Of a stretch of 64,000 nt of DNA, positions 9,935 through 58,332 are shown piece after piece. The translations under genes and the position numbers were made by a program. The notes beneath the pieces are model-generated. The model had not been told where the DNA came from and did no database searches. It worked only from the letters and a program-made list of their open reading frames with translations. This DNA is from Marinobacter fonticola. GTDB taxonomy: Bacteria > Pseudomonadota > Gammaproteobacteria > Pseudomonadales > Oleiphilaceae. Positions within the stretch are counted from its first letter, which is position 1; each line of letters opens with the position of its first letter. Location: contig NZ_CP043042.1 of NCBI RefSeq assembly GCF_008122265.1, forward strand, positions 496,001 through 560,000, read 5' to 3'.

Positions 9935-10701
9935 CAGCCACGGCGAAACAGTCGCGCCTCCCCATCGGTGGACTCGAAGTACAGGCCCTGACTTTCCATG
10001 ACTTGTCCCAGCGCCTTGTCACTGCAATGGATCGGGGCCAGCAGACAGCCCTGTTCTTCGTTAATAGCAATCTGGTCAACAAATGCGATCCCCTGCGGAA
10101 GCCATTGAATAGCCCGGATGTGGTGCTGGTCAACGACGGCATCGCCATGGATATCGCGAGTTGGCTGGTGCACCGGCGGCGCTTTCCCGAGAATCTCAAC
10201 GGAACGGATTTTACGCCGGCGCTGCTGGAGGAAAATGCGCGCACGAGCGACCGGCCTTGGGGCGTTTTCCTGTTCGGTGGCCAACCCGGTATCGCCGAAA
10301 GAGCCGCCGATAAGCTACGGCAATCGAACGTTCAGGTGGTTGGCACCTCCGATGGCTACAACCGTGACAACGACGCGCTTATTCAATCGATCAACGCCTC
10401 CGGTGCCGATGTCGTTCTGGTGGCCATGGGGAACCCGCTGCAAGAGCGGTGGATTATCGAGCATCGCCACGCGCTCAACGCGCGCTTGTTGGTCGGCGTC
10501 GGTGCATTGCTGGATTTCCTGGCGGGGGACAAGCCCCGAGCGCCGATGCTGCTTCGCCGGATGCATCTGGAATGGGCCTACCGTTTGAGCCTTGAGCCGA
10601 GACGCCTGCTGCGTCGATACACCGTAGACATGGCGGTCTTCCTGATGCGTGCTTTACGTTGGTCGCAGGGAAAACGTTTGGCATCGGACGGCGGAAAATA
10701 G
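9931..10701 (+). CDS. gumM: GumM-like glycosyltransferase (WecG/TagA/CpsF family, GT26)
   Basis: A 256-residue GT26 enzyme. Diagnostic segments are FFVNSNLVNKC, the active-site region VLVNDGIAMDIA, the arginine-rich RRRFPENLNGTDF, and the late VALxxP-type segment seen here as VLVAMGNPLQERWI with the conserved P-x-QE-x-W. Xanthan GumM is the beta-1,4-glucosyltransferase that makes the cellobiose unit on undecaprenyl diphosphate, and that role is expected here next to gumK and with a gumD homologue in the facing operon. Its basic, hydrophobic C-terminus (about residues 205-250) fits peripheral membrane association. It overlaps gumK by ATGA. Confidence 0.88.
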   Translation: MTATAKQSRLPIGGLEVQALTFHDLSQRLVTAMDRGQQTALFFVNSNLVNKCDPLRKPLNSPDVVLVNDGIAMDIASWLVHRRRFPENLNGTDFTPALLEENARTSDRPWGVFLFGGQPGIAERAADKLRQSNVQVVGTSDGYNRDNDALIQSINASGADVVLVAMGNPLQERWIIEHRHALNARLLVGVGALLDFLAGDKPRAPMLLRRMHLEWAYRLSLEPRRLLRRYTVDMAVFLMRALRWSQGKRLASDGGK

Positions 10702-10780
10702 GCTTAAAAAATGGATGACGGGTAGGTGCAGGGATGCGTAGTAAGGGAATGGGCCCGGGTAAAGGGCCGGAGGTATTTCG

Positions 10781-11560
10781 ATGATCCCTGCTTATTTGAT
10801 CAATCTGGCGAAGGACGACGAACGACTCCGCTCGTCCACGGAGCAATTTGCGCACCTGGGACTCACGCCGGAGCGCATCGAGGCCATCGACGGGCGACAG
10901 CTCACCGGAGCTGAATTCAAAGCGTTTTGTCACCTTCGGCCCCGTGGTGGCAAAAAGGGATGGCTTCCAGGCCAGGCGGGGTGTTTGTTGAGCCATAGGG
11001 CGGCGTGGCGCCGGATTGCCGGGAGCAATGCGGAATGGGCGGCGGTTTTCGAGGATGACCTGCGTATTGCCGACGACCTCCGGGACATGCTCGTTTCAGA
11101 TACCTGGATACCGAATGCGGTGGATCTTGTTCGCTTGGAGCCCTCGACAAACCGTGTATGGCTTAAAGACGACACCCGTTTTAGCCGGGGGTCGCGTGAT
11201 ATCCTGCGGGTGGGCTCCACGAGCTGGTGTGCCGGCGCCTACCTCATACACCGGGAAACAGCAAAGAGGCTGGTCGCGCTGGACCCGGTGCACCATCAGC
11301 CTGCGGACATGCTGCTGTTTTCCTTTGAAGATTCGGTCCTGGCGCCGACGCTCGCGATCTTTCAGTGTGAGCCGGCTCCCTGTATTCAGGACAAATTCTT
11401 GAACCGGTCGCGGCCCGCATGGCAGAGCAACATTGAAACCGGCGACGCCAAATCGACGTTGCTCCGCTACATGGCCCAGATGAAACCTTCGGCCTTGCGC
11501 AAGCGCCTGGAACGCACCCGGCTGAAATACCGGCGCACCACCTATCGGCGTTTCTCCTGA
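10781..11560 (+). CDS. GT25-family glycosyltransferase
   Basis: A 259-residue member of the LPS-type glycosyltransferase family 25. It begins with IPAYLINLAKDDERL, the typical start, followed by ERIEAIDGR, the GCLLSHRAAWRRI segment and the putative metal-binding FEDDLRI (acidic triad), then WCAGAYLIHRETAKRL. Many characterised GT25 enzymes transfer galactose to LPS or capsule oligosaccharides. It is not part of the xanthan set and suggests that an extra residue is added to the repeat unit. The start is supported by GGAGG seven bases upstream. A 79-base gap separates it from gumM. Confidence 0.85.
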   Translation: MIPAYLINLAKDDERLRSSTEQFAHLGLTPERIEAIDGRQLTGAEFKAFCHLRPRGGKKGWLPGQAGCLLSHRAAWRRIAGSNAEWAAVFEDDLRIADDLRDMLVSDTWIPNAVDLVRLEPSTNRVWLKDDTRFSRGSRDILRVGSTSWCAGAYLIHRETAKRLVALDPVHHQPADMLLFSFEDSVLAPTLAIFQCEPAPCIQDKFLNRSRPAWQSNIETGDAKSTLLRYMAQMKPSALRKRLERTRLKYRRTTYRRFS

Positions 11561-11652
11561 ACGAATGACTCCTTGGTCTCCATAGGCGATGACAGGTTAG
11601 ACCGATGTCGCCCGATGGCCGCTTGGTCGGCATCCTTTGAACTGGATACGGT

Positions 11653-13140
11653 ATGGATTTGAAGAAAAGGTTGAGCTATAGCACCGCTTGGATGAGCCTT
11701 GGCGCGACAGGAACCAGCGTCGTCAGCTTCATCATTTTTATTATTATTTCACGGCTGCTGACGCCGGCGGAAATCGGTCTGGTAGCCTTTTCCCTCATTT
11801 TTATCGACTTCGGCAAATTGGTGGCCCAAGGGGCCATCGGCAAAGCTATCGTGCAGCACAGTAGCTGGAACGACGACTTCGCCTCGACCTGTTTCTATCT
11901 CAATCTGGTTTTCGCGGTATTGCTGTCCCTGTTGTTTCTCGCCGTGGGTGTGCCGCTGGTTTCAACCTATTACGAACCAGCCGCGGGTCCAATCCTGCAG
12001 GCTTTGACAGCCATTTTCCTGCTGGAAGGGATCAAGACGGTCTATGAGGGAAAGCTTCAGCGAGAATTCGCCTTCCGGGTGATCGCTATCCGCACCATGG
12101 TTAGCAGTCTCGTTTCCGGTGCGGTGGGGGTTTTCCTGGCCGTGCGGGGTTACGGCGTGTGGGCGTTGGTGTGGCAGCAACTGATCAACAATCTTCTGCT
12201 GATGCTGATTACGGTGATCTGGGCTCGCTGGCGCCCACGATTCCGGTTCTCAAGGACGGCGTGCAGAAAGATCTTTCAGTTCGCGTCGCCTATCCTCGGC
12301 GCGCAAGTGCTTGGCGCGGCCAGCGCCAAGATATTCGAACTCTTTGTCGGCATCTTCCTGGGGCCGGCAGCGCTGGGCTTTTTCAAGGTCGGCGGCCGGG
12401 CGATCTATATCCTTCAGGACATTGTGCTCAAGCCATTTGAACACACGCTGCTGTCGGCGCTCTCCCGCTTGCCAGGGCCGGAAGAGCAAGCACGAGGCAC
12501 TCTGCGGGTGATTCGCATATCAGCCTACATCACCTTTCCGATTTTCTTCGGTGCGGCTGCGATAGCACCGGATTTCATTGTTTTCGCCTTCGGTTCGAAG
12601 TGGGAAGCCAGCGGCAACATCATGGCCATTATCGCCCTGGGTATACCGCCGTTCGTGGTCGGCACCCAGCTCAAAGGTATTCTGATGGCGGGCGGACACT
12701 CCCGGGTATTTTTCATGGTCGCTCTGGGCATGCTGTTGGCCAACGGCGTATTGGGTCTGGTCTCGGTACCGATGGGATTACTGATGGCCGCTTGCGGTTT
12801 CTCGCTGCGCAATTACATCTCTATGGTGTTTTATCTGCGGGCCTTCCGCCGGCTCTACAACGTACCGGCACTGTCGGTGGTGAAGACCGTTTCGCCCGCG
12901 TTCGTGGCCTCGGTCATCATGTGCCTTTGTGTGTTTACGATGGGCGGCTTGTTCCATGAGGATGCTCCGGGCGCCATCAAGCTCCTTGCGCTGTGCACGG
13001 CAGGCGCAGGCCTCTATCTGGTGCTCATGATCACGGTCTGCCGCCGGGAGACGGGGCATTTCTTCGAGGAAGGGATGGATATACTGCCGCATAAGATGCA
13101 GCCTCTGGCCCAGGCCATCCAGCGTTTCATCCGAGTCTAG
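11653..13140 (+). CDS. gumJ: Polysaccharide flippase, Wzx/GumJ-like (MOP superfamily)
   Basis: A 495-residue integral membrane protein with about twelve to fourteen helices of the polysaccharide transporter group. The first helix (GTSVVSFIIFIIISRLLTPAEIG) carries the LTPAE motif typical of Wzx, and the VWALVWQQL and GFFKVGGRAIYI regions also match. It should translocate undecaprenyl-diphosphate-linked repeat units to the periplasm for polymerisation. It is the last gene of the plus-strand operon and ends 87 bases from the convergent minus-strand operon. Assignment to the family is firm; the gumJ symbol rests on the gum-type gene set. Confidence 0.85.
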   Translation: MDLKKRLSYSTAWMSLGATGTSVVSFIIFIIISRLLTPAEIGLVAFSLIFIDFGKLVAQGAIGKAIVQHSSWNDDFASTCFYLNLVFAVLLSLLFLAVGVPLVSTYYEPAAGPILQALTAIFLLEGIKTVYEGKLQREFAFRVIAIRTMVSSLVSGAVGVFLAVRGYGVWALVWQQLINNLLLMLITVIWARWRPRFRFSRTACRKIFQFASPILGAQVLGAASAKIFELFVGIFLGPAALGFFKVGGRAIYILQDIVLKPFEHTLLSALSRLPGPEEQARGTLRVIRISAYITFPIFFGAAAIAPDFIVFAFGSKWEASGNIMAIIALGIPPFVVGTQLKGILMAGGHSRVFFMVALGMLLANGVLGLVSVPMGLLMAACGFSLRNYISMVFYLRAFRRLYNVPALSVVKTVSPAFVASVIMCLCVFTMGGLFHEDAPGAIKLLALCTAGAGLYLVLMITVCRRETGHFFEEGMDILPHKMQPLAQAIQRFIRV

Positions 13141-48692: not shown

Positions 48693-50537
48693 TCAGCTCT
48701 CTGTCCTCGGATTCTTCGGATAATACCGCTCCGGCAGGCGCTCGATGTGCGGGAAAAAACGCGTGTCTTTGTAGGGCATTTTCATAAAGCCCGAAACGCC
48801 CAGCCCGGTGATCTGGTCCACGGCGGCGAGGATGTCGTCCAGGCAGCGGCTGAATTCAACTTCCTTGGCCGGGTCGAGCAGGCGGTAGTGGCTGTGGATC
48901 TTCAAATGGCGGGGTAGGGCCTCGAAGATGATCATGCCGGTGTGATGGATGTTGTTCAGCGCTTCCAGGGATTTCATGATGGCATCGGGCAGGACCAGGA
49001 ATTCTTCCGGGTCCGGGCCATCCTCGAAATAGGAGTGGATGCGGGTGCGGTCCTCGATTTCCGGGGCGGCGCTAACTTCGTAGCGTAGCTGCATGTCCGG
49101 GGAGAGGATGAACGGCTGGTTCGGATCGTCGCGGTCGACGTGCAGGGTGTCGCGGGCATTGAACAGGCAACTCTTGAAGATGCCCTGGCGGTAGATCGCC
49201 TGAGCCAGGTTCACCATATTGTTGACCGCCGTAACAAAGGCATTTTTGAGCTTGGGATCGTGCAGGTTCAGTGAGGTGTCCACATAGACGCCGTTGGCCT
49301 CCCAGCGCACCGCCAATCCGCCTTCCACCGGATAGCGGCCCAGTCGGCTGACCGCCGCCAGGAACGCCTTTTCGGTTTCACCCATGCCTTGCATGAAGTT
49401 CTTGTAGTAGCGGTCGAGCTGCACGTCGTTGACGTCATTGAGCGTCGAGGGCGCATTTTCTTCACGCAGGAATGACTTTCGCGAGCTATAGACGACGGTA
49501 TCGATCTCCCGGTCCGATTGCCGTGTCCAGACCGGCACCAGTGGGCTCGGCGCCGGCTCGGGCAGGTCGATCATCACCGTGCGGGCCATGCGCGGCATCT
49601 CTTTCAGGTAGTAGTCGCCAGCGCGTCGGCGGGTGTCGGGGTCGGGGTCGAGCATGCCGTCCAGCATGCGGGCGAACGCCATCGGCAAGCCCAGGGAGGT
49701 GGAAGGTATGGCGTGGTGGCCGAAGCGGCAGGATTGTCCCGAGGCCAGCGCATAGAGCGTTCCCGCGGCACCCTGCTCGTCGAAACGTGGGGAGGAAAGC
49801 CCGCCATGCAGTTGTTCCTCCCCGATAAAGTAGACATCGCCTAGACGGGCGTTGGTCTGCTGCAGGTTATCGGACATCAGTTCCATCACATTGGCGGTGA
49901 TGAACTGCTGATTGGCGTCCAGTTGCGCGAACACGGAGGAGCCCCAGTCGATCAGGGCGATGTTTTCGCGCTCGGCGTCGAAGACCAGGTTGGACGGTTT
50001 GATGTCGCCGTGGACGATGGGCCGTCCGGAAGGTCCGGATTCGCGGCGTAGATTGCGCAGGATATCCGCGAGCTGAGCGGCAATGCGCATGACCAGCCGG
50101 GGCCGCAGCCGGCCTTCCCGTAGCGAGACCTCTTCCAGGTTGAGGCCGGCGGCCCGCTCCATCACCAGAATGGGTTGATTCCGTGCCCGTTGGAACGCGA
50201 TCAGACGAGGCACCCTGGGATGCTCCACCTGCTCGAGAATAAACGCCTCGTCTTCCAGCCGGTCCTGCAGGTGCTGGGGCAGGTTGACCCGGGTGAACTT
50301 GAATACGTGCTCAAGGTCCCGCGTACCCTCCAGCGCCAGCCGGCCGGCAAATACGAAGCCGTAGGCGCCTTTGCCGATCATCTCGATATCGCGGTAACCC
50401 AGCTGCCTGAGCTGGTCTGCGCACAGGGCCACCCAGTCCTTCAGTTTCCTGGCATCGTCCTCGCTGAGCAGATAGATCGACTGCTCTTCGGGGATGTAGA
50501 ACTGCTGAAGCTGGGATGGCTCGGTGTCATGCAGCAT
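48693..50537 (-). CDS. Hanks-type serine/threonine protein kinase linked to the bkd operon
   Basis: A 614-residue protein kinase with an unassigned C-terminal domain. The kinase core shows the glycine loop GKGAYGFVF (residues 55-63), a lysine in HVFKF (about 80), a glutamate in the following helix (DEAFILEQ), the catalytic loop HGDIKPSNLVF (about 176-186, with HGD for HRD) and DWGSS for DFG (about 197-201), so catalysis is plausible. Residues 360-600 form a separate alpha/beta region (EKAFLAAVSRLGRYPVEGGLAVRWEA, PDAIMKSLEALNNIHH) that I do not recognise. No membrane segment is seen. The start lies 2 bases after the E2 stop, so it should be cotranscribed with the branched-chain dehydrogenase, which is its obvious candidate substrate. 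Confidence 0.85.
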   Translation of the reverse strand: MLHDTEPSQLQQFYIPEEQSIYLLSEDDARKLKDWVALCADQLRQLGYRDIEMIGKGAYGFVFAGRLALEGTRDLEHVFKFTRVNLPQHLQDRLEDEAFILEQVEHPRVPRLIAFQRARNQPILVMERAAGLNLEEVSLREGRLRPRLVMRIAAQLADILRNLRRESGPSGRPIVHGDIKPSNLVFDAERENIALIDWGSSVFAQLDANQQFITANVMELMSDNLQQTNARLGDVYFIGEEQLHGGLSSPRFDEQGAAGTLYALASGQSCRFGHHAIPSTSLGLPMAFARMLDGMLDPDPDTRRRAGDYYLKEMPRMARTVMIDLPEPAPSPLVPVWTRQSDREIDTVVYSSRKSFLREENAPSTLNDVNDVQLDRYYKNFMQGMGETEKAFLAAVSRLGRYPVEGGLAVRWEANGVYVDTSLNLHDPKLKNAFVTAVNNMVNLAQAIYRQGIFKSCLFNARDTLHVDRDDPNQPFILSPDMQLRYEVSAAPEIEDRTRIHSYFEDGPDPEEFLVLPDAIMKSLEALNNIHHTGMIIFEALPRHLKIHSHYRLLDPAKEVEFSRCLDDILAAVDQITGLGVSGFMKMPYKDTRFFPHIERLPERYYPKNPRTES

Positions 50538-50539
50538 GT

Positions 50540-52150
50540 TCAGCCCAAATGCAGCAACATCGTTTGCGGCGCTTCCAGGTAGCCCTTCCAGCGGTTGCAG
50601 AAGCGGGCGATGGTGCCGCCATCGATGACGCGGTGATCGCCGGCCCAGCTGATCGTCATGATCGCCCGTTCCACCACCTGGCCGTTGGCATCGAAACGCG
50701 GCAGGCGCTGGGTACGGCCGAGCGCGACGATGGCTACCTCCGGCGGGTTGATGATGGGCGCGGCGTAGGTGCCGCCCAGCGCGCCGATGTTGGAGATGGT
50801 GATGGTGCCGCCTTTCAGGTCTTCCTGACTGACGCGGCCCTCGCGGGCGGCTTCGGTCAGGCGGGCCACTTCATCGGCGATCTCCAGCAGGGTCAGCCGC
50901 TCGACGCCTTTCACGTTGGGCACGATCAGGCCTACTTTGCTGTCCACCGCCATGCCGATATTGCACTGAGGCTGGTAGTGAATCTCGGTGACGTCATCGT
51001 TGATGCGGCTGTTGAGGATCGGGAACTCCTGGACCGCCAGTGCCATGGCTTTCATGATGAACGGCATCAGCGTCAGGCGCTTACCCTGGGCTTCGGCCTC
51101 GGGTTTGAGCTGCTGGCGCAGGTTGAGCAGGTCGGTGACGTCGATGTCCTCGCTGAAGTTGAAGTGAGGGATCGTCGACGCCGATTCCGCCATGCGCTTG
51201 GCCATGGCTGCCCGCATGCCTTTGATCGGCTCGACGCGCACCTCCTGCTCGGCCGCCTCGGCGCGGCGTGGTTTGGCGGCCTTCGCCGAGTCCTCGGGCT
51301 GGCGGGTTTGTGCGGCCGGCTTTTCGAGATGCGCCAGAATGTCCGCTTTGAGCACCCGGCCGTCCTTGCCGGTGCCCTCAATGTCGGATAGCTCCAGATC
51401 ATGCTCGCGGACCAGTCGCCGCACCGCGGGGCTGGCGGGAATGCGCTGACGTGTTTGCGGCGAGGTGGTGGTTTTGGCGGTAGCCGGCACCGAGTCGCTG
51501 CTCTTGGGCGCGGCGGCTTGTTGCGGTTTAGCCGCAGGTGCCGAGCCTTCCTCTCGTTCCCGCGGGATAAACGCAAACAGCGGCGAATGTACCTTGGCCA
51601 GTTCTTCCTTCTGATAGTAAAGCTGAGTCACCCGGCCGGCTTTTGGCGCGGTGATCTCGACCATCGCCTTGTCGGTCATCACGTCGACCACAGGCTGGTC
51701 TTCCTCGATCTCGTCGCCCTCGGCGATGCGCCATTCCACGACCTCGCACTCGACGATGCCTTCACCGATATCCGGCAGGATAAAGTCCTCTGTCTCGCCA
51801 TCGTCAGAGGCGGTGGTTTCGCCTTTTTGCTCAGCTTCGGGACTGCTTTTGGCGTCCCGGTTGCTATCGGCGGGCGAGGACTCCGATGCGGCGCTTTCGC
51901 TACCGTCGTCGTCGTCTTCTGCGATCAGCTCGAACAGCGGTTCATGCACTTTGGCGGTGTCGCCTTCCTGATGGTATAGGCGGGTCACGCGGCCTTTATA
52001 GGGCGCTGGAATTTCCACCAGCGCTTTGTCGGTCATGACCTCGGCCACCGGCTGATCTTCCTCGATCACGTCGCCCTCGCTCACCAGCCACTTGACCAGC
52101 TCGCACTCCACGATACCTTCGCCGATATCGGGCAGTATAAAATCACTCAT
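50540..52150 (-). CDS. bkdB: Branched-chain 2-oxoacid dehydrogenase E2 (dihydrolipoyl acyltransferase), two lipoyl domains
   Basis: A 536-residue E2 core. Two lipoyl domains stand in tandem at about residues 1-80 and 115-195, each with the lipoylated lysine in VMTDKALVE or VMTDKAMVE. An acidic linker separates them, then an alanine/proline-rich linker, an E3-binding domain (ASPAVRRLVREHDLELSDIEGTG) and the catalytic acyltransferase domain with the HRVIDG active-site motif near the end. Two lipoyl domains are more than the single one I expect for Pseudomonas BkdB. ATG 52150 is preferred, with GGAGAG upstream. It transfers the branched acyl group to CoA. No E3 gene lies nearby, so a shared lipoamide dehydrogenase is presumed. 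Confidence 0.92.
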   Translation of the reverse strand: MSDFILPDIGEGIVECELVKWLVSEGDVIEEDQPVAEVMTDKALVEIPAPYKGRVTRLYHQEGDTAKVHEPLFELIAEDDDDGSESAASESSPADSNRDAKSSPEAEQKGETTASDDGETEDFILPDIGEGIVECEVVEWRIAEGDEIEEDQPVVDVMTDKAMVEITAPKAGRVTQLYYQKEELAKVHSPLFAFIPREREEGSAPAAKPQQAAAPKSSDSVPATAKTTTSPQTRQRIPASPAVRRLVREHDLELSDIEGTGKDGRVLKADILAHLEKPAAQTRQPEDSAKAAKPRRAEAAEQEVRVEPIKGMRAAMAKRMAESASTIPHFNFSEDIDVTDLLNLRQQLKPEAEAQGKRLTLMPFIMKAMALAVQEFPILNSRINDDVTEIHYQPQCNIGMAVDSKVGLIVPNVKGVERLTLLEIADEVARLTEAAREGRVSQEDLKGGTITISNIGALGGTYAAPIINPPEVAIVALGRTQRLPRFDANGQVVERAIMTISWAGDHRVIDGGTIARFCNRWKGYLEAPQTMLLHLG

Positions 52151-52197
52151 GGTTGCTCTCCTGTCCTTCACCCGTCCTTCAATGAAAATCGGGGGAC

Positions 52198-53175
52198 CTA
52201 GAATTCGATGCTTTCCCGGATGGCCTCGTAGACCTTCAGGTCGTTGGGCAAGTACTCTTTTTCGAGCACCAGCGGGAAGGGCGTGTCCATCCCGGTAACC
52301 CGTGCAATCGGGGATTCCAGGTAGAGGAAACAGCGTTCCTGGATGGTGGCGGCGATCTCGCTGGCAAAGCCGCCGGTCAGCGGGGCTTCGTGCGTGACCA
52401 CCAGACGCCCGGTCTTGAAGACCGAATCGGCGACGGTTTCCACATCCCAGGGCAGGATGGTGCGCAGGTCGATGACTTCACAGGAGATGCCGTCCTTTTC
52501 CGCTTTCTCGACGGCTTTTTCGATGACCTCCATTTGCGCGCCCCAGCCCAGCACGGTGACGTCCTTACCTTCTTTGAGTACCTCGGCTTCGCCCAGGGGC
52601 AGCTGGTACTCGCCTTCCGGGACCTCGCCGACGGACGCGCGATAGAGGCGTTTGGGTTCGAAGAACAGGGTAGGGTTGGGGTCGTGAATCGATGCTAGAA
52701 GCAGGCCCTTGGCCTGATGCGGATTGCGCGGTACGACGATTTTCAGGCCCGGTGTATGCGCGAAATAGGCTTCCGGAGACTGGGAGTGGTACAGGCCCCC
52801 GGCGATGCCGCCGCCATAAGGGGCGCGAATGGTCAGGCCGCCCACATCGAACAGGCTGCCTGAGCGGTAGCGGAACTTGGCCGACTCGTTCACGATCTGG
52901 TCGAATGCGGGAAAGATGTAGTCCGCAAACTGGATCTCGGCGACCGGGATCGAGCCCTGTGCCGCCAGGCCGTTGGCGAAGCCAACGATACCTTGCTCCA
53001 CCAGCGGTGTATTGAAACACCGGGCCTTGCCGTACTTCTGCTGCAGGTTGCTGGTGGCCCGGAAGACGCCGCCGAAAATGCCGACATCCTCACCAAAACA
53101 CAGTACCCGGTCGTTGCCGGCCATCGCGATATCCAGGGCATCGTTGATGGCCTGGAGCATATTCATCTTCGCCAT
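52198..53175 (-). CDS. bkdA2: Branched-chain 2-oxoacid dehydrogenase E1 beta subunit
   Basis: A 325-residue transketolase-like subunit. Recognisable are [31 protein letters not shown], the [19 protein letters not shown] segment, [19 protein letters not shown] and [12 protein letters not shown], all typical of E1beta of branched-chain dehydrogenase, and the C-terminal transketolase domain ([19 protein letters not shown]). It forms the thiamine-diphosphate site with E1alpha. Its start is 1 base from the E1alpha stop with GGGAGGGG in the end of that gene, so translation is coupled. Confidence 0.93.
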
Positions 53176-53176
53176 G

Positions 53177-54373
53177 TTAAGCCCCTCCCTTTGCCGTTAT
53201 GGCTGGATCGTTCGCGCTCTTGGGATAGTCATCCGGGTATTTGCGGATGTGGGCCTTGAGCTTCTCGAACTGGGCGTTCAGCATCGGCGGCACCTGATCA
53301 TAGACATCGGTGATCAAGGACTCGAGTGGCGGCGGCGGGCGTTTCTGGGCGCGTTTCATGGTTTCCAGTACTTCGCGGCGCAGGTCTTCCTGGATTTTCT
53401 TTTCGTCGTCCTCGGTCCACCATTTGTGCTTCTCCATCCAGCGCTGCATGCGCAGGAGTGGGTCTTTCTCGCGCCAGGCGGTCTCTTCGTCCTTGCTGCG
53501 GTAGCCGGAGGGGTCGTCCGACGACGAGTGCGCCGCGAGACGGTAAGTCATGGCTTCGACCAGTACAGGGCGGTTCTCTTCCACCGCCATTTTACGGGCC
53601 AGGCGAGTGGCTTCGTAGACAGCCAGAACGTCGTTGCCGTCGACGCGAATGACATCCATCTTGTAGCCATAAGCCCGGGGCGCTACGCCATCGGCCGCGA
53701 ACTGTTCGACGGCCGGGGTGGAAATGGCATAACCGTTGTTACGGCAGAAGAAAATGACCGGTACGCGATGCACGGCGGCCATGTTGAGGGCGGCGTGGAA
53801 GTCGCCTTCCGATGCGGCGCCTTCGCCGAAATAGGTGATCGTGCACTCACCCTTGCCGGCCAGTTTTTGGCCGTAGGCGTAGCCGGTGGCCTGGGGAATC
53901 TGGGTGGCTAGGGGGGATGAAATGGTCATGTAGTGCAGGTTGCTCGAGCCATAGTGAACCGGCATCTGACGACCCTTGCCGTAGTCCAGCTCGTTACCGA
54001 ACAGCTGATTCATGAACTCGTCGATGGTGTAGCCACGGTAAGCGAGCGAGCCTTGTTCCCGGTACTGGGCCATGATCATGTCGGTATCGTCCAGGGCAGC
54101 GGTACTGCCGATTACGGCGGCTTCCTCCCCGGTGCACTGCATGTAGAAGCTCAGGCGCCCCTGGCGCTGGGCGGCGAGCATGCGCTCGTCGAGTACCCGC
54201 GTCATCACCATCGCGCGATAGATGCGTAGGGCTTTGTCCTTGTCGATATCAGGCGCTTTGGCGCCCTTGTAGAGGGAGCCGTCCTGCTTGAGAAGCTTGA
54301 ATGTGGGAATGTGAAATTCCGCACCGTCGGTAAAAGACGGAGAATAAACAACCTTGGATTTTGTTGTTGTCAT
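53177..54373 (-). CDS. bkdA1: Branched-chain 2-oxoacid dehydrogenase E1 alpha subunit
   Basis: A 398-residue thiamine-diphosphate enzyme. The cofactor motif is [19 protein letters not shown] (about 181-199) with the later [18 protein letters not shown]-like entry is [10 protein letters not shown]. The loop [16 protein letters not shown] (about 278-293) retains serines at the places equivalent to the two regulatory phosphoserines of mammalian BCKDH E1alpha (HSTSDD...YRS). The ATG at 54373 has AGGAAGAGGA directly upstream; the longer frame to 54427 adds an implausible leader. It decarboxylates the keto acids of valine, leucine and isoleucine. First gene of the operon E1alpha-E1beta-E2-kinase. 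Confidence 0.94.
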
Positions 54374-54495: not shown

Positions 54496-54723
54496 GCAGA
54501 GCGCAGCCCGCTGGATATCCGCCTGGAGTCTGTGTCGACCCTCAGGCGAAAGCCAGCGAAACTGGGCTCTGCGCCGCATTTTCCGGTGATCGACCGGGGC
54601 GCGGCAGGGCTCTTTGGGGCTAACTTGTGGGTTTGGATAAAACCGACTTGAATCAGCCAGTGTTGACCTTAACGTAAAGTGCTGGCTTGGGGTAGTGTCA
54701 AGTGATCGAACTTTGGTTCTCGT

Positions 54724-56004
54724 TTAGGCAACGACACCGGATCGAAACAAGACTGCAATGGCGGCTTCGTCCAGTTCAAGGTCTTCCGTTAACAAGGTCT
54801 GGGTATGTGCGCCAAGGCCGGGCGGTGCCGCTCGATAGGCGGCCGGGGTTGCGCTGAATTTTGCCGGATAGGCAATGGTGGGAATGGCGTAGCCATCGGC
54901 TCGCTCGAGGGGAACGACCATCTCACGGGCGCTCACCTGGGGGTCTTCGAAAACTTCCGGGATGGTATTGATGGGACCGCAGGGCACCTTCGCCATTTCC
55001 AGCAGGTGAATAATGTGCTCGCGTGAGTAGTGGGCCAGCCGTTCTTCCAATGTGGCCTCAAGGGCGGAACGGTTTGCGACCCGGTCGGCGTTGGTGCGGA
55101 ACCTTGCGTCCTGACCTGTCGCATCAAGCGCCAAAACGTCGCACAGCGATCGGAATTGCCGGTCGTTGCCGCAGGCGATAATCACGTGGCCATCCTGCAC
55201 CGGATAAGCTCGGTAGGGCACCAGGTTAGGGTGATGATTGCCCATCGGGCGAGGCGTACGTTTGCCCACGAGCCAGTTGGAACCCTGGTTGGCAAGCATT
55301 GCTACCTGGCAATCCAGCAGGGCGCAGTCGATATACTGGCCCTCACCGGTTCGATCCCGGTGCGCGATGGCGGCGAGGATCGAGGTGGCAGCGTACATGC
55401 CGGTGAATTCATCGGCGATGGCAACGCCGGTCTTTAACGGTTCGCTGCGTTGATCCCCATTATCCGGCTGACCGGTAATGCTCATCAGCCCGCCCATGCC
55501 CTGAATCAGAAAATCATAGCCAGCGCGTTGGGCGTAGGGGCCGGTCTGGCCGAAGCCGGTGATAGAGCAATACACTAAGCGCGGGTTGAGCTCTCGCAGC
55601 GTGTCGTAGTCCAGGCCGTACTTCTTTAGGCCGCCGACCTTGAAGTTCTCCACCAGAATATCGGCGGAGCGGGCCAGCTTGCGGATCAGGTTCGCCCCTT
55701 CGGGCTTTGAGAAGTCGACACAGACCGACTCCTTGTTGCGATTGCAGCAGGTGAAGTAGGCGGCATCGGAGGCGCCGGACGATGGGTCTTCTATACTACC
55801 GCTACTGCGCGTCAAAAAGGGTGGGCCCCAGCGACGGGTGTCGTCGCCGATCAGGCTTTCAATCTTAATCACCCGGGCGCCCAAGTCCGCAAGAATCTGC
55901 GTGGCCCAAGGGCCGGCCAGAATGCGGCTCAGGTCCAGAACGGTCAGATGACTGAGTGGTCCCTGGCGTGCCGTCGTGGGAGGCGCTGGATTGGATTGAT
56001 CCAT
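54724..56004 (-). CDS. Family III CoA transferase (CaiB/BaiF), probable glutarate CoA transferase
   Basis: A 426-residue class III acyl-CoA:carboxylate CoA transferase. Signatures are HLTVLDLSRILAGPWATQILADLGARVIKIE, GDDTRRWGPPF, RNKESVCVDFSKPEG, LVENFKVGGLKKYGLDY and the aspartate-containing GYDFLIQGMGGLMSITG, the catalytic nucleophile region. Next to glutaryl-CoA dehydrogenase it probably makes glutaryl-CoA from glutarate and succinyl-CoA, as its counterparts do in lysine/glutarate degradation. It is 67 bases downstream of gcdH on the same strand. Substrate inferred from context. Confidence 0.88.
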   Translation of the reverse strand: MDQSNPAPPTTARQGPLSHLTVLDLSRILAGPWATQILADLGARVIKIESLIGDDTRRWGPPFLTRSSGSIEDPSSGASDAAYFTCCNRNKESVCVDFSKPEGANLIRKLARSADILVENFKVGGLKKYGLDYDTLRELNPRLVYCSITGFGQTGPYAQRAGYDFLIQGMGGLMSITGQPDNGDQRSEPLKTGVAIADEFTGMYAATSILAAIAHRDRTGEGQYIDCALLDCQVAMLANQGSNWLVGKRTPRPMGNHHPNLVPYRAYPVQDGHVIIACGNDRQFRSLCDVLALDATGQDARFRTNADRVANRSALEATLEERLAHYSREHIIHLLEMAKVPCGPINTIPEVFEDPQVSAREMVVPLERADGYAIPTIAYPAKFSATPAAYRAAPPGLGAHTQTLLTEDLELDEAAIAVLFRSGVVA

Positions 56005-56071
56005 GGAACACTCTCTCCGTTGCCCATTGGGATGCGCCGGACGTTATCGCGCCCGGCGGCCCCGGTCGGGT

Positions 56072-57259
56072 TTAGCAGGTAAACGCCTGGATGCCCGTCT
56101 GAGCACGGCCCAGGATCAGGGCGTGCACGTCGTGGGTCCCCTCGTAGGTGTTGACCGCTTCCAGATTCACCATATGGCGGATGACGCCGTACTCGTCGGA
56201 TACGCCGTTGCCGCCGAGCATGTCGCGGGCCGTCCGTGCGATATCCAGCGCCTTGCCGCAGGAATTGCGCTTCATCAGCGACGTGATCTCCACGGCGGCC
56301 TTCTCTTCATCCTTTAATCGACCCAGCCTCAGACAGCCCTGCAGGCCCAGGGTGATTTCCGTCTGCATGTCCGCCAGCTTCTTCTGGATCAGCTGGTTAG
56401 CGGCCAGTGGGCGGCCGAATTGCTTGCGGTCGAGCACGTATTGGCGCGCCGCCGTCCAGCAGAATTCAGCGGCACCCAGGGCGCCCCAGGCAATGCCGTA
56501 ACGGGCGGAATTCAGGCAGGTGAAGGGGCCACGCAGGCCGGTGACGTCCGGGAACATGTTCTCTTCCGGCACGAAGACTTCATCCATCGCGATCTCGCCG
56601 GTGATGGAGGCGCGCAGGCTCACCTTGCCGTGGATGGCCGGGGCGCTCAATCCCTTCATGCCCTTGTCGAGGATGAAGCCGCGGATCTTGCCATCCTCGG
56701 TCTTGCCCCAGACTACGAACACGTCGGCGATTGGGCTGTTGGTGATCCAGATCTTGCTGCCGCTCAGCTTGTAGCCACCGTCGACTTTCTTGGCGCGGGT
56801 TTCCATGCTGCCGGGGTCGGAGCCGTGATTCGGCTCGGTCAGGCCGAAACAGCCAATCCACTCGCCGCTGGCCAGCTTAGGCAGATACTTCTGCTTCTGC
56901 GCTTCGGAGCCGAATTCGTTGATCGGCACCATCACCAGGGAAGACTGCACGCTCATCATGGAGCGGTAGCCGGAATCCACCCGCTCGACTTCGCGGGCGA
57001 TCAGGCCGTAGGACACGTAGTTGAGGCCCGCGCCGCCGTACTGCTCGGGGATGGTGGCGCCCAGCAGGCCCAGTTCGCCCATCTCACGAAAGATCTTCGG
57101 ATCGGTGTTTTCGTTGCGGAAGGCATCCAGAACGCGGGTGGCCAGCTTGTCCTGGGCGTAGCTATGGGCGGTATCCCGCACCATGCGTTCTTCTTCCTCA
57201 AGCTGGTCGTCCAGCAGTAGAGGGCTTAACCAGTTGAATTCGGCGTCGGAGCGGCTCAT
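56072..57259 (-). CDS. gcdH: Glutaryl-CoA dehydrogenase
   Basis: A 395-residue acyl-CoA dehydrogenase of the glutaryl-CoA type. Typical segments: [38 protein letters not shown] (in parts), [17 protein letters not shown], the [18 protein letters not shown] stretch, [16 protein letters not shown], and the catalytic glutamate in [20 protein letters not shown]. It oxidatively decarboxylates glutaryl-CoA to crotonyl-CoA in lysine, tryptophan and glutarate catabolism. It is the first gene of the gcdH-CoA-transferase unit and faces a LysR regulator. Confidence 0.94.
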
Positions 57260-57373
57260 TGTTCGTTAACCTCACTTGAGAATTTGTTGACTTTTTAGTC
57301 TGCTGCTCTGAAAAGGGCTTTGTTACGGTATAATTGGATAATAAAGAAACAACTGATCTTTACTCAAACGATA

Positions 57374-57400
57374 ATATTTCATTCCATTGTGCTAAAATAT
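57374..57400. promoter_or_regulatory. Possible LysR-type binding site upstream of gcdH and its regulator
   Basis: ATATTT (57374-57379) and AAATAT (57395-57400) are complementary around 15 bases (a T-N11-A-like arrangement) in the AT-rich 182-base divergent region. The site lies 42 bases upstream of the LysR-gene start, where autoregulatory sites of this family usually lie. Confidence 0.45.
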
Positions 57401-57441
57401 CACTTCATAATTCGTGCGGCAGCCAGGAGCAGAGAGATTGC

Positions 57442-58332
57442 ATGCGTCGTAAAGTACCCAGTACAACGGTCCTGATGGGCTTCGAAGCGGCGGCCCGGCA
57501 CGTTAGTTTTACCGAAGCGGCCCAGGAACTGTCGTTGACTCAGAGCGCCATCTGTCGTCAGATCGCCTCCCTTGAAGAGTTTCTTGGTGTCAAGCTGTTT
57601 CGGCGCGGCCGCCAAGGTGTGCGGCTGACGCAAGCCGGCGAGAGCTACCATCGCCTGGTGGCGCAGCGTCTCAACGAGATTGAGCGCGACACGCTATCGG
57701 TCATGGGTAATCATGGCACGGAAAACGCACTTGAGCTTGCCGTAGTGCCCACGTTCGGCACCCGCTGGCTAATTCCTCGCCTGCGCAAGTTCAGGGCGCT
57801 GCACCCGAATATTACGGTGAACATGACCAACAAGACGCGGCCGTTCCTGTTCTCGGATACACCGTTCGACGCTGCTATTTACTTCGGCAATGGCGATTGG
57901 TCGGGCACCGAGACCACTTTGTTGATGTACGAGCGGCCGGTGCCGGTGTGCAGTCCGGAGCTGATTGCTCCAGCTACATCGCTGGCTTACGACGACATTG
58001 TGAACTATCCGTTGCTGCAGCAGACCACACGACCCTATGCCTGGCGGGAATGGTTTCGGTCGCTGGATATGCGCGTCGAGCGGGATATGTCCGGCCCACG
58101 CTTCGAGCTGTTCACGATGTTGGCGGAGGCTGCCGCCCACGGCATGGGCATCGCCCTGATTCCAGCGTTTCTGATCGAGCGGGAACTGCAGTCGGGCCAA
58201 TTGATCGTGCCGGTTTCGCACAGCTTCCGCAGTAAAGGTGGCTACCATTTTGTATTGCCCGATCTTCGGAAAGACAACGAAACGGTCAACCATTTCAGGG
58301 AGTGGGTGTTGAGTGAAGGTGAGTTTGCCTGA
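57442..58332 (+). CDS. LysR-family regulator (GcvA-like subgroup), probable gcdH regulator
   Basis: A 296-residue LysR-type protein. Residues 1-60 form the winged helix-turn-helix (LMGFEAAARHVSFTEAAQELSLTQSAICRQI, in segments), followed by the linker helix and the effector-binding domain (ALELAVVPTFGTRWLIPRLRKF, FDAAIYFGNGDW, LLQQTTRPYAWREWF). The start at ATG 57442 with GAGAGA upstream is chosen; an upstream TTG at 57334 would add 36 residues without homology to the family. Divergent from gcdH, it resembles the glutarate-responsive activator GcdR of pseudomonads by position. Confidence 0.88.
   Translation: MRRKVPSTTVLMGFEAAARHVSFTEAAQELSLTQSAICRQIASLEEFLGVKLFRRGRQGVRLTQAGESYHRLVAQRLNEIERDTLSVMGNHGTENALELAVVPTFGTRWLIPRLRKFRALHPNITVNMTNKTRPFLFSDTPFDAAIYFGNGDWSGTETTLLMYERPVPVCSPELIAPATSLAYDDIVNYPLLQQTTRPYAWREWFRSLDMRVERDMSGPRFELFTMLAEAAAHGMGIALIPAFLIERELQSGQLIVPVSHSFRSKGGYHFVLPDLRKDNETVNHFREWVLSEGEFA

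Follow-up and report, generated by a model that had tools for sequence, protein, structure and literature searches.

A 64,000-nucleotide stretch of the Marinobacter fonticola genome (positions 496,001 to 560,000 of contig NZ_CP043042.1), referred to below as the window and numbered from its own first letter, carries a protein kinase gene as the last member of a cluster that also encodes the E1alpha, E1beta and E2 subunits of a dehydrogenase complex taken to be branched-chain ketoacid dehydrogenase (BCKDH, bkd genes). The kinase is probably dedicated to the E1alpha active-site loop of this complex, on which it would act as an inhibitor, making it an independent counterpart of the mitochondrial BCKDH kinase (BCKDK, also called BDK). 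This reading, obtained by comparing sequences, draws on the order of the genes, the conserved catalytic residues, the co-occurrence and co-loss of the kinase with one type of E1alpha, the covariation of one E1alpha loop residue (Leu279) with kinase presence, and the resemblance of the complex to BCKDH. The features on which the argument depends, all on the reverse strand, are the following.

48693..50537, reverse strand: kinase gene (614 aa), Hanks-type Ser/Thr, final gene of the E1alpha-E1beta-E2-kinase cluster
49575..50423, reverse strand: kinase domain, residues ~39-321, with the GKGAYGFVF loop, Lys80, Glu97, HGDIKPSN (Asp178, Asn183), DWG (Asp197) and Asp253
48696..49547, reverse strand: C-terminal domain, residues 331-614, two similar alpha/beta halves in structure models
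50540..52153, reverse strand: E2 acyltransferase, two lipoyl domains and an E3-binding domain (Pfam)
52198..53175, reverse strand: E1beta, best PDB match BCKDH E1beta 1dtw_B
53177..54373, reverse strand: E1alpha, best PDB match BCKDH E1alpha 1dtw_A
53495..53539, reverse strand: E1alpha phospho-loop, residues 279-293 (Leu279 to Ser293), by alignment to 1dtw_A
53537..53539, reverse strand: Leu279, the column covarying with kinase presence
53525..53527, reverse strand: Ser283, equivalent of mammalian site 1 and proposed target
53495..53497, reverse strand: Ser293, equivalent of mammalian site 2

The kinase and its gene cluster

The protein matches the Pkinase profile of Pfam (PF00069) at 59.9 bits, against a cut-off of 31.7 and with an E-value of 3e-16, and its kinase domain adopts a kinase fold. 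Throughout a 46-row alignment of kinase sequences, Gly55, Gly57, Gly60, Lys80, Glu97, His176-Gly177-Asp178, Asn183, Asp197-Trp198-Gly199 and Asp253 are invariant; these include what we take to be the glycine loop, the lysine, the catalytic Asp and the metal-binding Asn and Asp of such enzymes. HGD stands in the place of the usual HRD. A Hanks-type kinase with an intact catalytic core is thus indicated, for which Ser/Thr phosphotransfer is predicted. Beyond the kinase domain, the first-pass annotation of this DNA had described an unassigned domain of about 250 residues; Pfam indeed gives no match for the region (~331-614), the length of which is closer to 280 residues. Its two halves (~384-472 and ~512-602) align with each other weakly (E 0.001), and fold comparison of the domain models returned no usable match.

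The kinase start codon (ATG, 50537-50535) lies two bases past the E2 stop codon (TGA, 50542-50540), in agreement with the earlier annotation. Judging from the spacing, E1alpha, E1beta, E2 and the kinase would be cotranscribed; a scan for a sigma-70-like promoter gave none.

The identity of the complex follows from its E1 subunits, which are nearer to the solved BCKDH than to pyruvate dehydrogenase (PDH). Among PDB entries, E1alpha scores 406 bits against BCKDH 1dtw (50% identity across 367 columns with 1dtw_A), 234 against 1um9, 222 against 1qs0_A and 160 against mitochondrial PDH, the corresponding E1beta scores being 451, 353, 325 and 194 bits. The nearest NCBIfam models for both subunits are PDH models, yet the scores fall under the model cut-offs. 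The genome also holds three full-length aceE-type PDH E1 genes (at ~582164, ~2569668 and ~3831105), so the complex encoded here is not its sole pyruvate dehydrogenase. The complex is therefore taken to be BCKDH, with a branched-chain ketoacid substrate assigned by homology. The three reference structures come from human (1dtw), Pseudomonas putida (1qs0) and Thermus (1um9). That E1alpha and E1beta are much nearer 1dtw than 1qs0 (406 vs 222 and 451 vs 325 bits) is an observation in its own right, which bears on the origin of the mitochondrial enzyme.

Linkage and co-occurrence with one E1alpha type

Whether the kinase gene is a regular neighbour of bkd genes had been raised as a check by the first-pass annotation, and other genomes bear the adjacency out. 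A scan of named genomes gave 289 kinase relatives, the best 80 of which, mostly from Marinobacter, Halomonas and Billgrantia, were analysed as loci. Marinobacter nauticus ATCC 49840 and Halomonas elongata are among the species that carry the kinase. E1alpha, E1beta and E2 are all present in 77 of these 80, and the other three (L038, L063 and L066) end at a contig edge. With start codons assigned by rule, the gap between E2 and the kinase is at most 71 bp in 72 of the 79 loci with E2 and at most 220 bp in 78; the remaining locus has 2095 bp. Over 76 loci, kinase and E1alpha also agree in their distances (r 0.88), compared with r 0.84 for E1alpha-E1beta and 0.77 for kinase-E1beta.

The association extends to genomes in which the two genes are apart. 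In a phylum sample of 398 genomes, the kinase occurs in 29, every one a member of the Gammaproteobacteria, the class of the window; the same 29 carry an E1alpha of at least 59% identity, and none of the 369 others does. Sixty of these 369 kinase-less genomes have an E1alpha match at E 1e-60 or better, with a best identity of 42%. Kinase and E1alpha are neighbours in 22 of the 29 and separated in seven (G590, G669, G691, G679, G566, G711 and G639). Within a class sample of 369 genomes, a full kinase was found in five, and this E1alpha type in the same five.

Larger sets from two families, each named here after one genome, show how the genes are lost. In the G711 family, whose nearest relatives are Shewanella, the kinase is present in 89 of 96 genomes and the seven without it all retain E1alpha (E1alpha was searched in 20 of the 96, all 20 positive). 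The G584 family, which appears from relatives such as Thalassotalea to belong to the Alteromonadaceae, comprises 162 genomes, of which 128 have both genes, 19 E1alpha only, two the kinase only and 13 neither (Fisher p 5e-9, uncorrected for kinship). Both kinase-only genomes, G901 and G917, are metagenome-assembled genomes of 84-85% completeness. Two genera display joint losses of unlinked genes. In genus g338, the carriers G933, G958 and G978 show separations of 1.1 Mb or 35 kb or a placement on different contigs, and both genes are gone from G717 and G903 of that genus; carriers in genus g484 (G852, G891, G951 and G970) have them 110-303 kb apart, and G923 has lost both. Overall, the only instances of the kinase without E1alpha were two genomes that are incomplete and one fragment at the end of a contig. 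Where both were sought, the enzyme thus persists without the kinase and the kinase hardly ever without the enzyme, which is the pattern of a dedicated regulator.

Some apparent kinase pseudogenes in Shewanellaceae were rejected as such: rows listing one stop are read as matches overrunning the gene end, given that open frame and match have about the same length. In G801, both genes are split, and an assembly problem is assumed for this reason.

Two alternatives can be weighed on these data. According to the first, the kinase and the bkd genes are simply co-inherited in a few families, with no functional coupling. It is true that the 29 kinase-bearing genomes of the phylum sample all belong to the class of the window, and most linked cases share ancestry. 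Nevertheless, the kinase is retained when unlinked, the unlinked genes are co-lost in two genera, the full catalytic set is kept and kinase and E1alpha are conserved to the same degree (mean distances 0.175 and 0.174), and such hitchhiking is very improbable. The second supposes that the kinase has another target within branched-chain or fatty-acid breakdown, a regulator for example, so that the cluster reflects co-expression only. In its favour, the kinase lies away from bkd in five Shewanellaceae-type genomes of the phylum sample and therefore needs no operon, and bacterial Hanks-type kinases often have several targets. The neighbours of unlinked kinase genes, read by eye at six sites (G711, G566, G590, G691, G669 and G749, of which G711, G566, G590 and G749 are Shewanellaceae-type), included no consistent metabolic partner. 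Nevertheless, the kinase accompanies one E1alpha type even where the genes are apart and is lost along with it, and Leu279 of that E1alpha covaries with it; another target is improbable, if less so than hitchhiking.

The E1alpha loop and Leu279

The loop is of particular relevance as the homologous segment is the regulatory site in mammals. Parts of a report on the mammalian enzyme (PMC8329528) describe phosphorylation of E1 at Ser293 and Ser303 by BDK, which inactivates E1, and suggest that Ser293 is the critical site. In the 1dtw chain, the two loop serines are ten residues apart at positions 292 (HHS) and 302 (YRS), which correspond by alignment to Ser283 and Ser293 of the M. fonticola protein. 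The earlier claim that both mammalian sites are present as serines in this loop is thereby upheld, together with its caution that such serines are no proof of regulation. Ser283 is not diagnostic, since it is found in all 178 rows with the kinase and also without it and in outgroup proteins; the loop serines were accordingly rejected as evidence for kinase control. At position 293, Ser or Thr occurs in 173 of 178 kinase-bearing rows, 24 of 26 kinase-less rows and 5 of 33 outgroup E1alpha sequences, the last of which mostly have Pro (21 of 33). These 33 were taken from 71 distinct kinase-less matches of lower identity. Being Ser/Thr inside the clade and rarely so outside it, site 2 characterises the clade, and 1dtw shares it.

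A more informative signal was obtained by scanning every E1alpha column (with E1beta and E2 outside the scan) for a residue that is fixed in the presence of the kinase and lost in its absence. A first scan, with 118 rows with the kinase and seven Shewanellaceae rows without it, gave columns 59, 122, 151, 201, 207 and 279. After rows from a second family, which supplied 19 more E1alpha sequences from kinase-less genomes, had been added (178 with the kinase, 21 without), column 279 alone passed. Five incomplete or fragmented kinase-less genomes had been set apart from the 21 after their loops were seen. As a check, a recount was made with all 26 kinase-less rows restored and the duplicate G711 dropped, leaving 177 rows with the kinase. 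Column 279 was again the only one at thresholds of 97%/34%; 97%/50% adds column 281, which is also in the loop, and 95%/50% further adds column 332. Residue 279 is Leu in 177/177 rows with the kinase, and Met in 13, Val in seven and Leu in six of the 26 without it. It sits in the loop, four residues ahead of Ser283. The 177 rows represent 172 distinct sequences, among which the same organism may occur in both the named and the unnamed collection, and include, beside the earlier rows, 60 fetched genomes out of the 128 kinase-bearing ones of the G584 family.

The position of column 279 among comparable columns is also distinctive. Kinase-less rows were divided into six groups, namely five clades plus the incomplete assemblies taken as a set. 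Of 124 E1alpha columns that are at least 98% conserved in the presence of the kinase, 117 have a deviating majority in no group and six in a single group; for column 279 the number of such groups is four. When four groups are used, 119 columns deviate in none, four in one and column 279 in three.

These results also bear on a third alternative, in which the kinase regulates BCKDH through another subunit (the E2 lipoyl or linker regions, or E1beta) and Leu279 covaries indirectly, for example through docking near the loop. The E2 linkers are rich in Ser/Thr, the genomic linkage involves the whole cluster and the covariation scan covered E1alpha only; set against this, the E1alpha column that covaries repeatedly falls in the very loop that is phosphorylated by mammalian BDK. 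This alternative is unlikely, and still the least unlikely of the three.

Several observations weigh against control of the E1alpha loop by the kinase. The proposed target, Ser283, is kept in 26/26 kinase-less rows and in 30 of the 33 outgroup E1alpha sequences (Thr in the other three), and five of the 178 rows with the kinase have Ala, Glu or Val at site 2. Leu279 is retained in six of the 26 kinase-less rows (G758, G977, G959, G931, G875 and G905). For four of these (G959, G931, G875 and G905), the assembly is incomplete or fragmented and the kinase may just be missing from it; G977 combines Leu279 with Glu at position 293, as does the nearest kinase-bearing row, G932. Kinase losses are few, with five changes of presence on an E1alpha tree of 133 rows (112 with the kinase and 21 without, the named loci thinned to numbers divisible by 8), and an independent-pairs sign test, with 2.8 pairs changing the same way, 0 the opposite way and 1.2 unchanged, cannot reach 0.05. 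In G362, from the class sample, the kinase is represented by a fragment at the end of a contig, and E1alpha was not found. The distance correlation of kinase and E1alpha given above has E1beta pairs as its only comparators, with no housekeeping gene among them. No phosphatase gene lies beside the kinase, and a genome search limited to PP2C_2 gave two matches, both elsewhere. Finally, the literature matches listed, in a coverage that leaves out most subscription journals, include no report of a kinase-bkd link or of such phosphorylation in bacteria.

Proposed mechanism and relation to known systems

The independently evolved phospho-control suggested by the first-pass annotation is thus favoured by linkage, co-occurrence, co-loss and the covariation of Leu279, with phosphorylation and its effect as predictions. 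The kinase would phosphorylate Ser283 in the E1alpha active-site loop, recognising a Leu279-x-x-His-Ser context, and the phosphate would lower E1 activity at times when there is no need to oxidise branched-chain ketoacids. The inhibitory sign is borrowed from the mammalian case. The C-terminal alpha/beta domain would most likely sense a metabolite or dock the kinase on E1 or E2. A more specific version is put forward tentatively and is less likely than not: reversible phospho-control of BCKDH would have arisen independently in bacteria on the E1alpha loop that mitochondria also use, through a PknB-like kinase with a C-terminal sensor for a branched-chain metabolite. As no phosphatase gene was seen next to the kinase gene, the same protein may in this version also dephosphorylate its target, like AceK.

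BCKDK is a kinase of the GHKL/PDK type. The M. fonticola system resembles the mitochondrial one (E1alpha Ser293/Ser303) in its homologous E1alpha loop target, with both serines present, and differs from it in that the kinase is Hanks-type (PknB-like) and has an additional C-terminal domain. No GHKL ATPase domain is found among its five Pfam matches at E 0.1, which places it outside the BCKDK/PDK family. A convergent origin of the two switches is likely, because the target is homologous and the mammalian kinase is a GHKL enzyme of another fold class.

AceK, the isocitrate dehydrogenase kinase/phosphatase of Escherichia coli, is a kinase encoded in a central-metabolism operon that switches one metabolic enzyme. 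It offers a case of similar working and not of kinship, as the AceK family is missing from the Pfam (E 0.1) and NCBIfam (E 0.01) lists of the kinase. Compared with PknB/StkP-type kinases, the protein has no PASTA match in Pfam, HGD for HRD, a C-terminal domain of its own and a fixed gene partner. The phage-defence kinases PD-T4-6 and MAD6 match in the kinase part only (best 72.7 bits in PADLOC; MAD6 50 bits against a cut-off of 460), and a defence role was rejected: unlike patchy defence genes, this gene is widespread (89/96 genomes in one family) and tied to a metabolic enzyme.

To our knowledge, phospho-control of BCKDH is known from mitochondria and has no known bacterial example. If the proposed reading is true, a second, unrelated kinase acting on the same loop would constitute a clean case of convergent regulation, and Marinobacter, Halomonas, Shewanella and their relatives would gain a post-translational brake on the oxidation of branched-chain amino acids. 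In humans, loss or gain of BCKDH kinase causes disease, according to portions of two articles (PMC8878489, PMC8872256). Sections of a further study (PMC3223726) place the Shewanella bkd operon under LiuR and TyrR, in the regulon for branched-chain amino acids; bkd is treated there as transcriptionally controlled, and those sections do not mention a kinase.

Neighbouring genes and additional observations

The gap upstream of E1alpha contains TTTACGTTAA at 54669-54678, a possible regulator site by pattern only. The pattern has one match at no more than one mismatch against 0.89 expected, and it is not claimed as a LiuR site. The cluster is adjoined at 54724-58332 by genes for a family III CoA-transferase (nearest to the succinate-glutarate type), an acyl-CoA dehydrogenase and a LysR regulator, a set that looks like glutarate or lysine breakdown, the pathway being deduced from the gene content.

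The two other kinases of the genome (G000:C1 1423318-1424801 and 1138929-1140416) each have an adjoining or same-frame PP2C_2 domain, which is probably in the same frame given that both frames are 588 aa long. In locus L093 (genome G139), a 513-aa gene on the opposite strand (10357-11898) lies between E2 and the kinase and has no clear Pfam family (best E 0.2). Lastly, a kinase 84% identical to that of M. fonticola (P0091) is recorded for Streptosporangium jomthongense, which by its name is an actinobacterium; the record is probably mislabelled or mixed.

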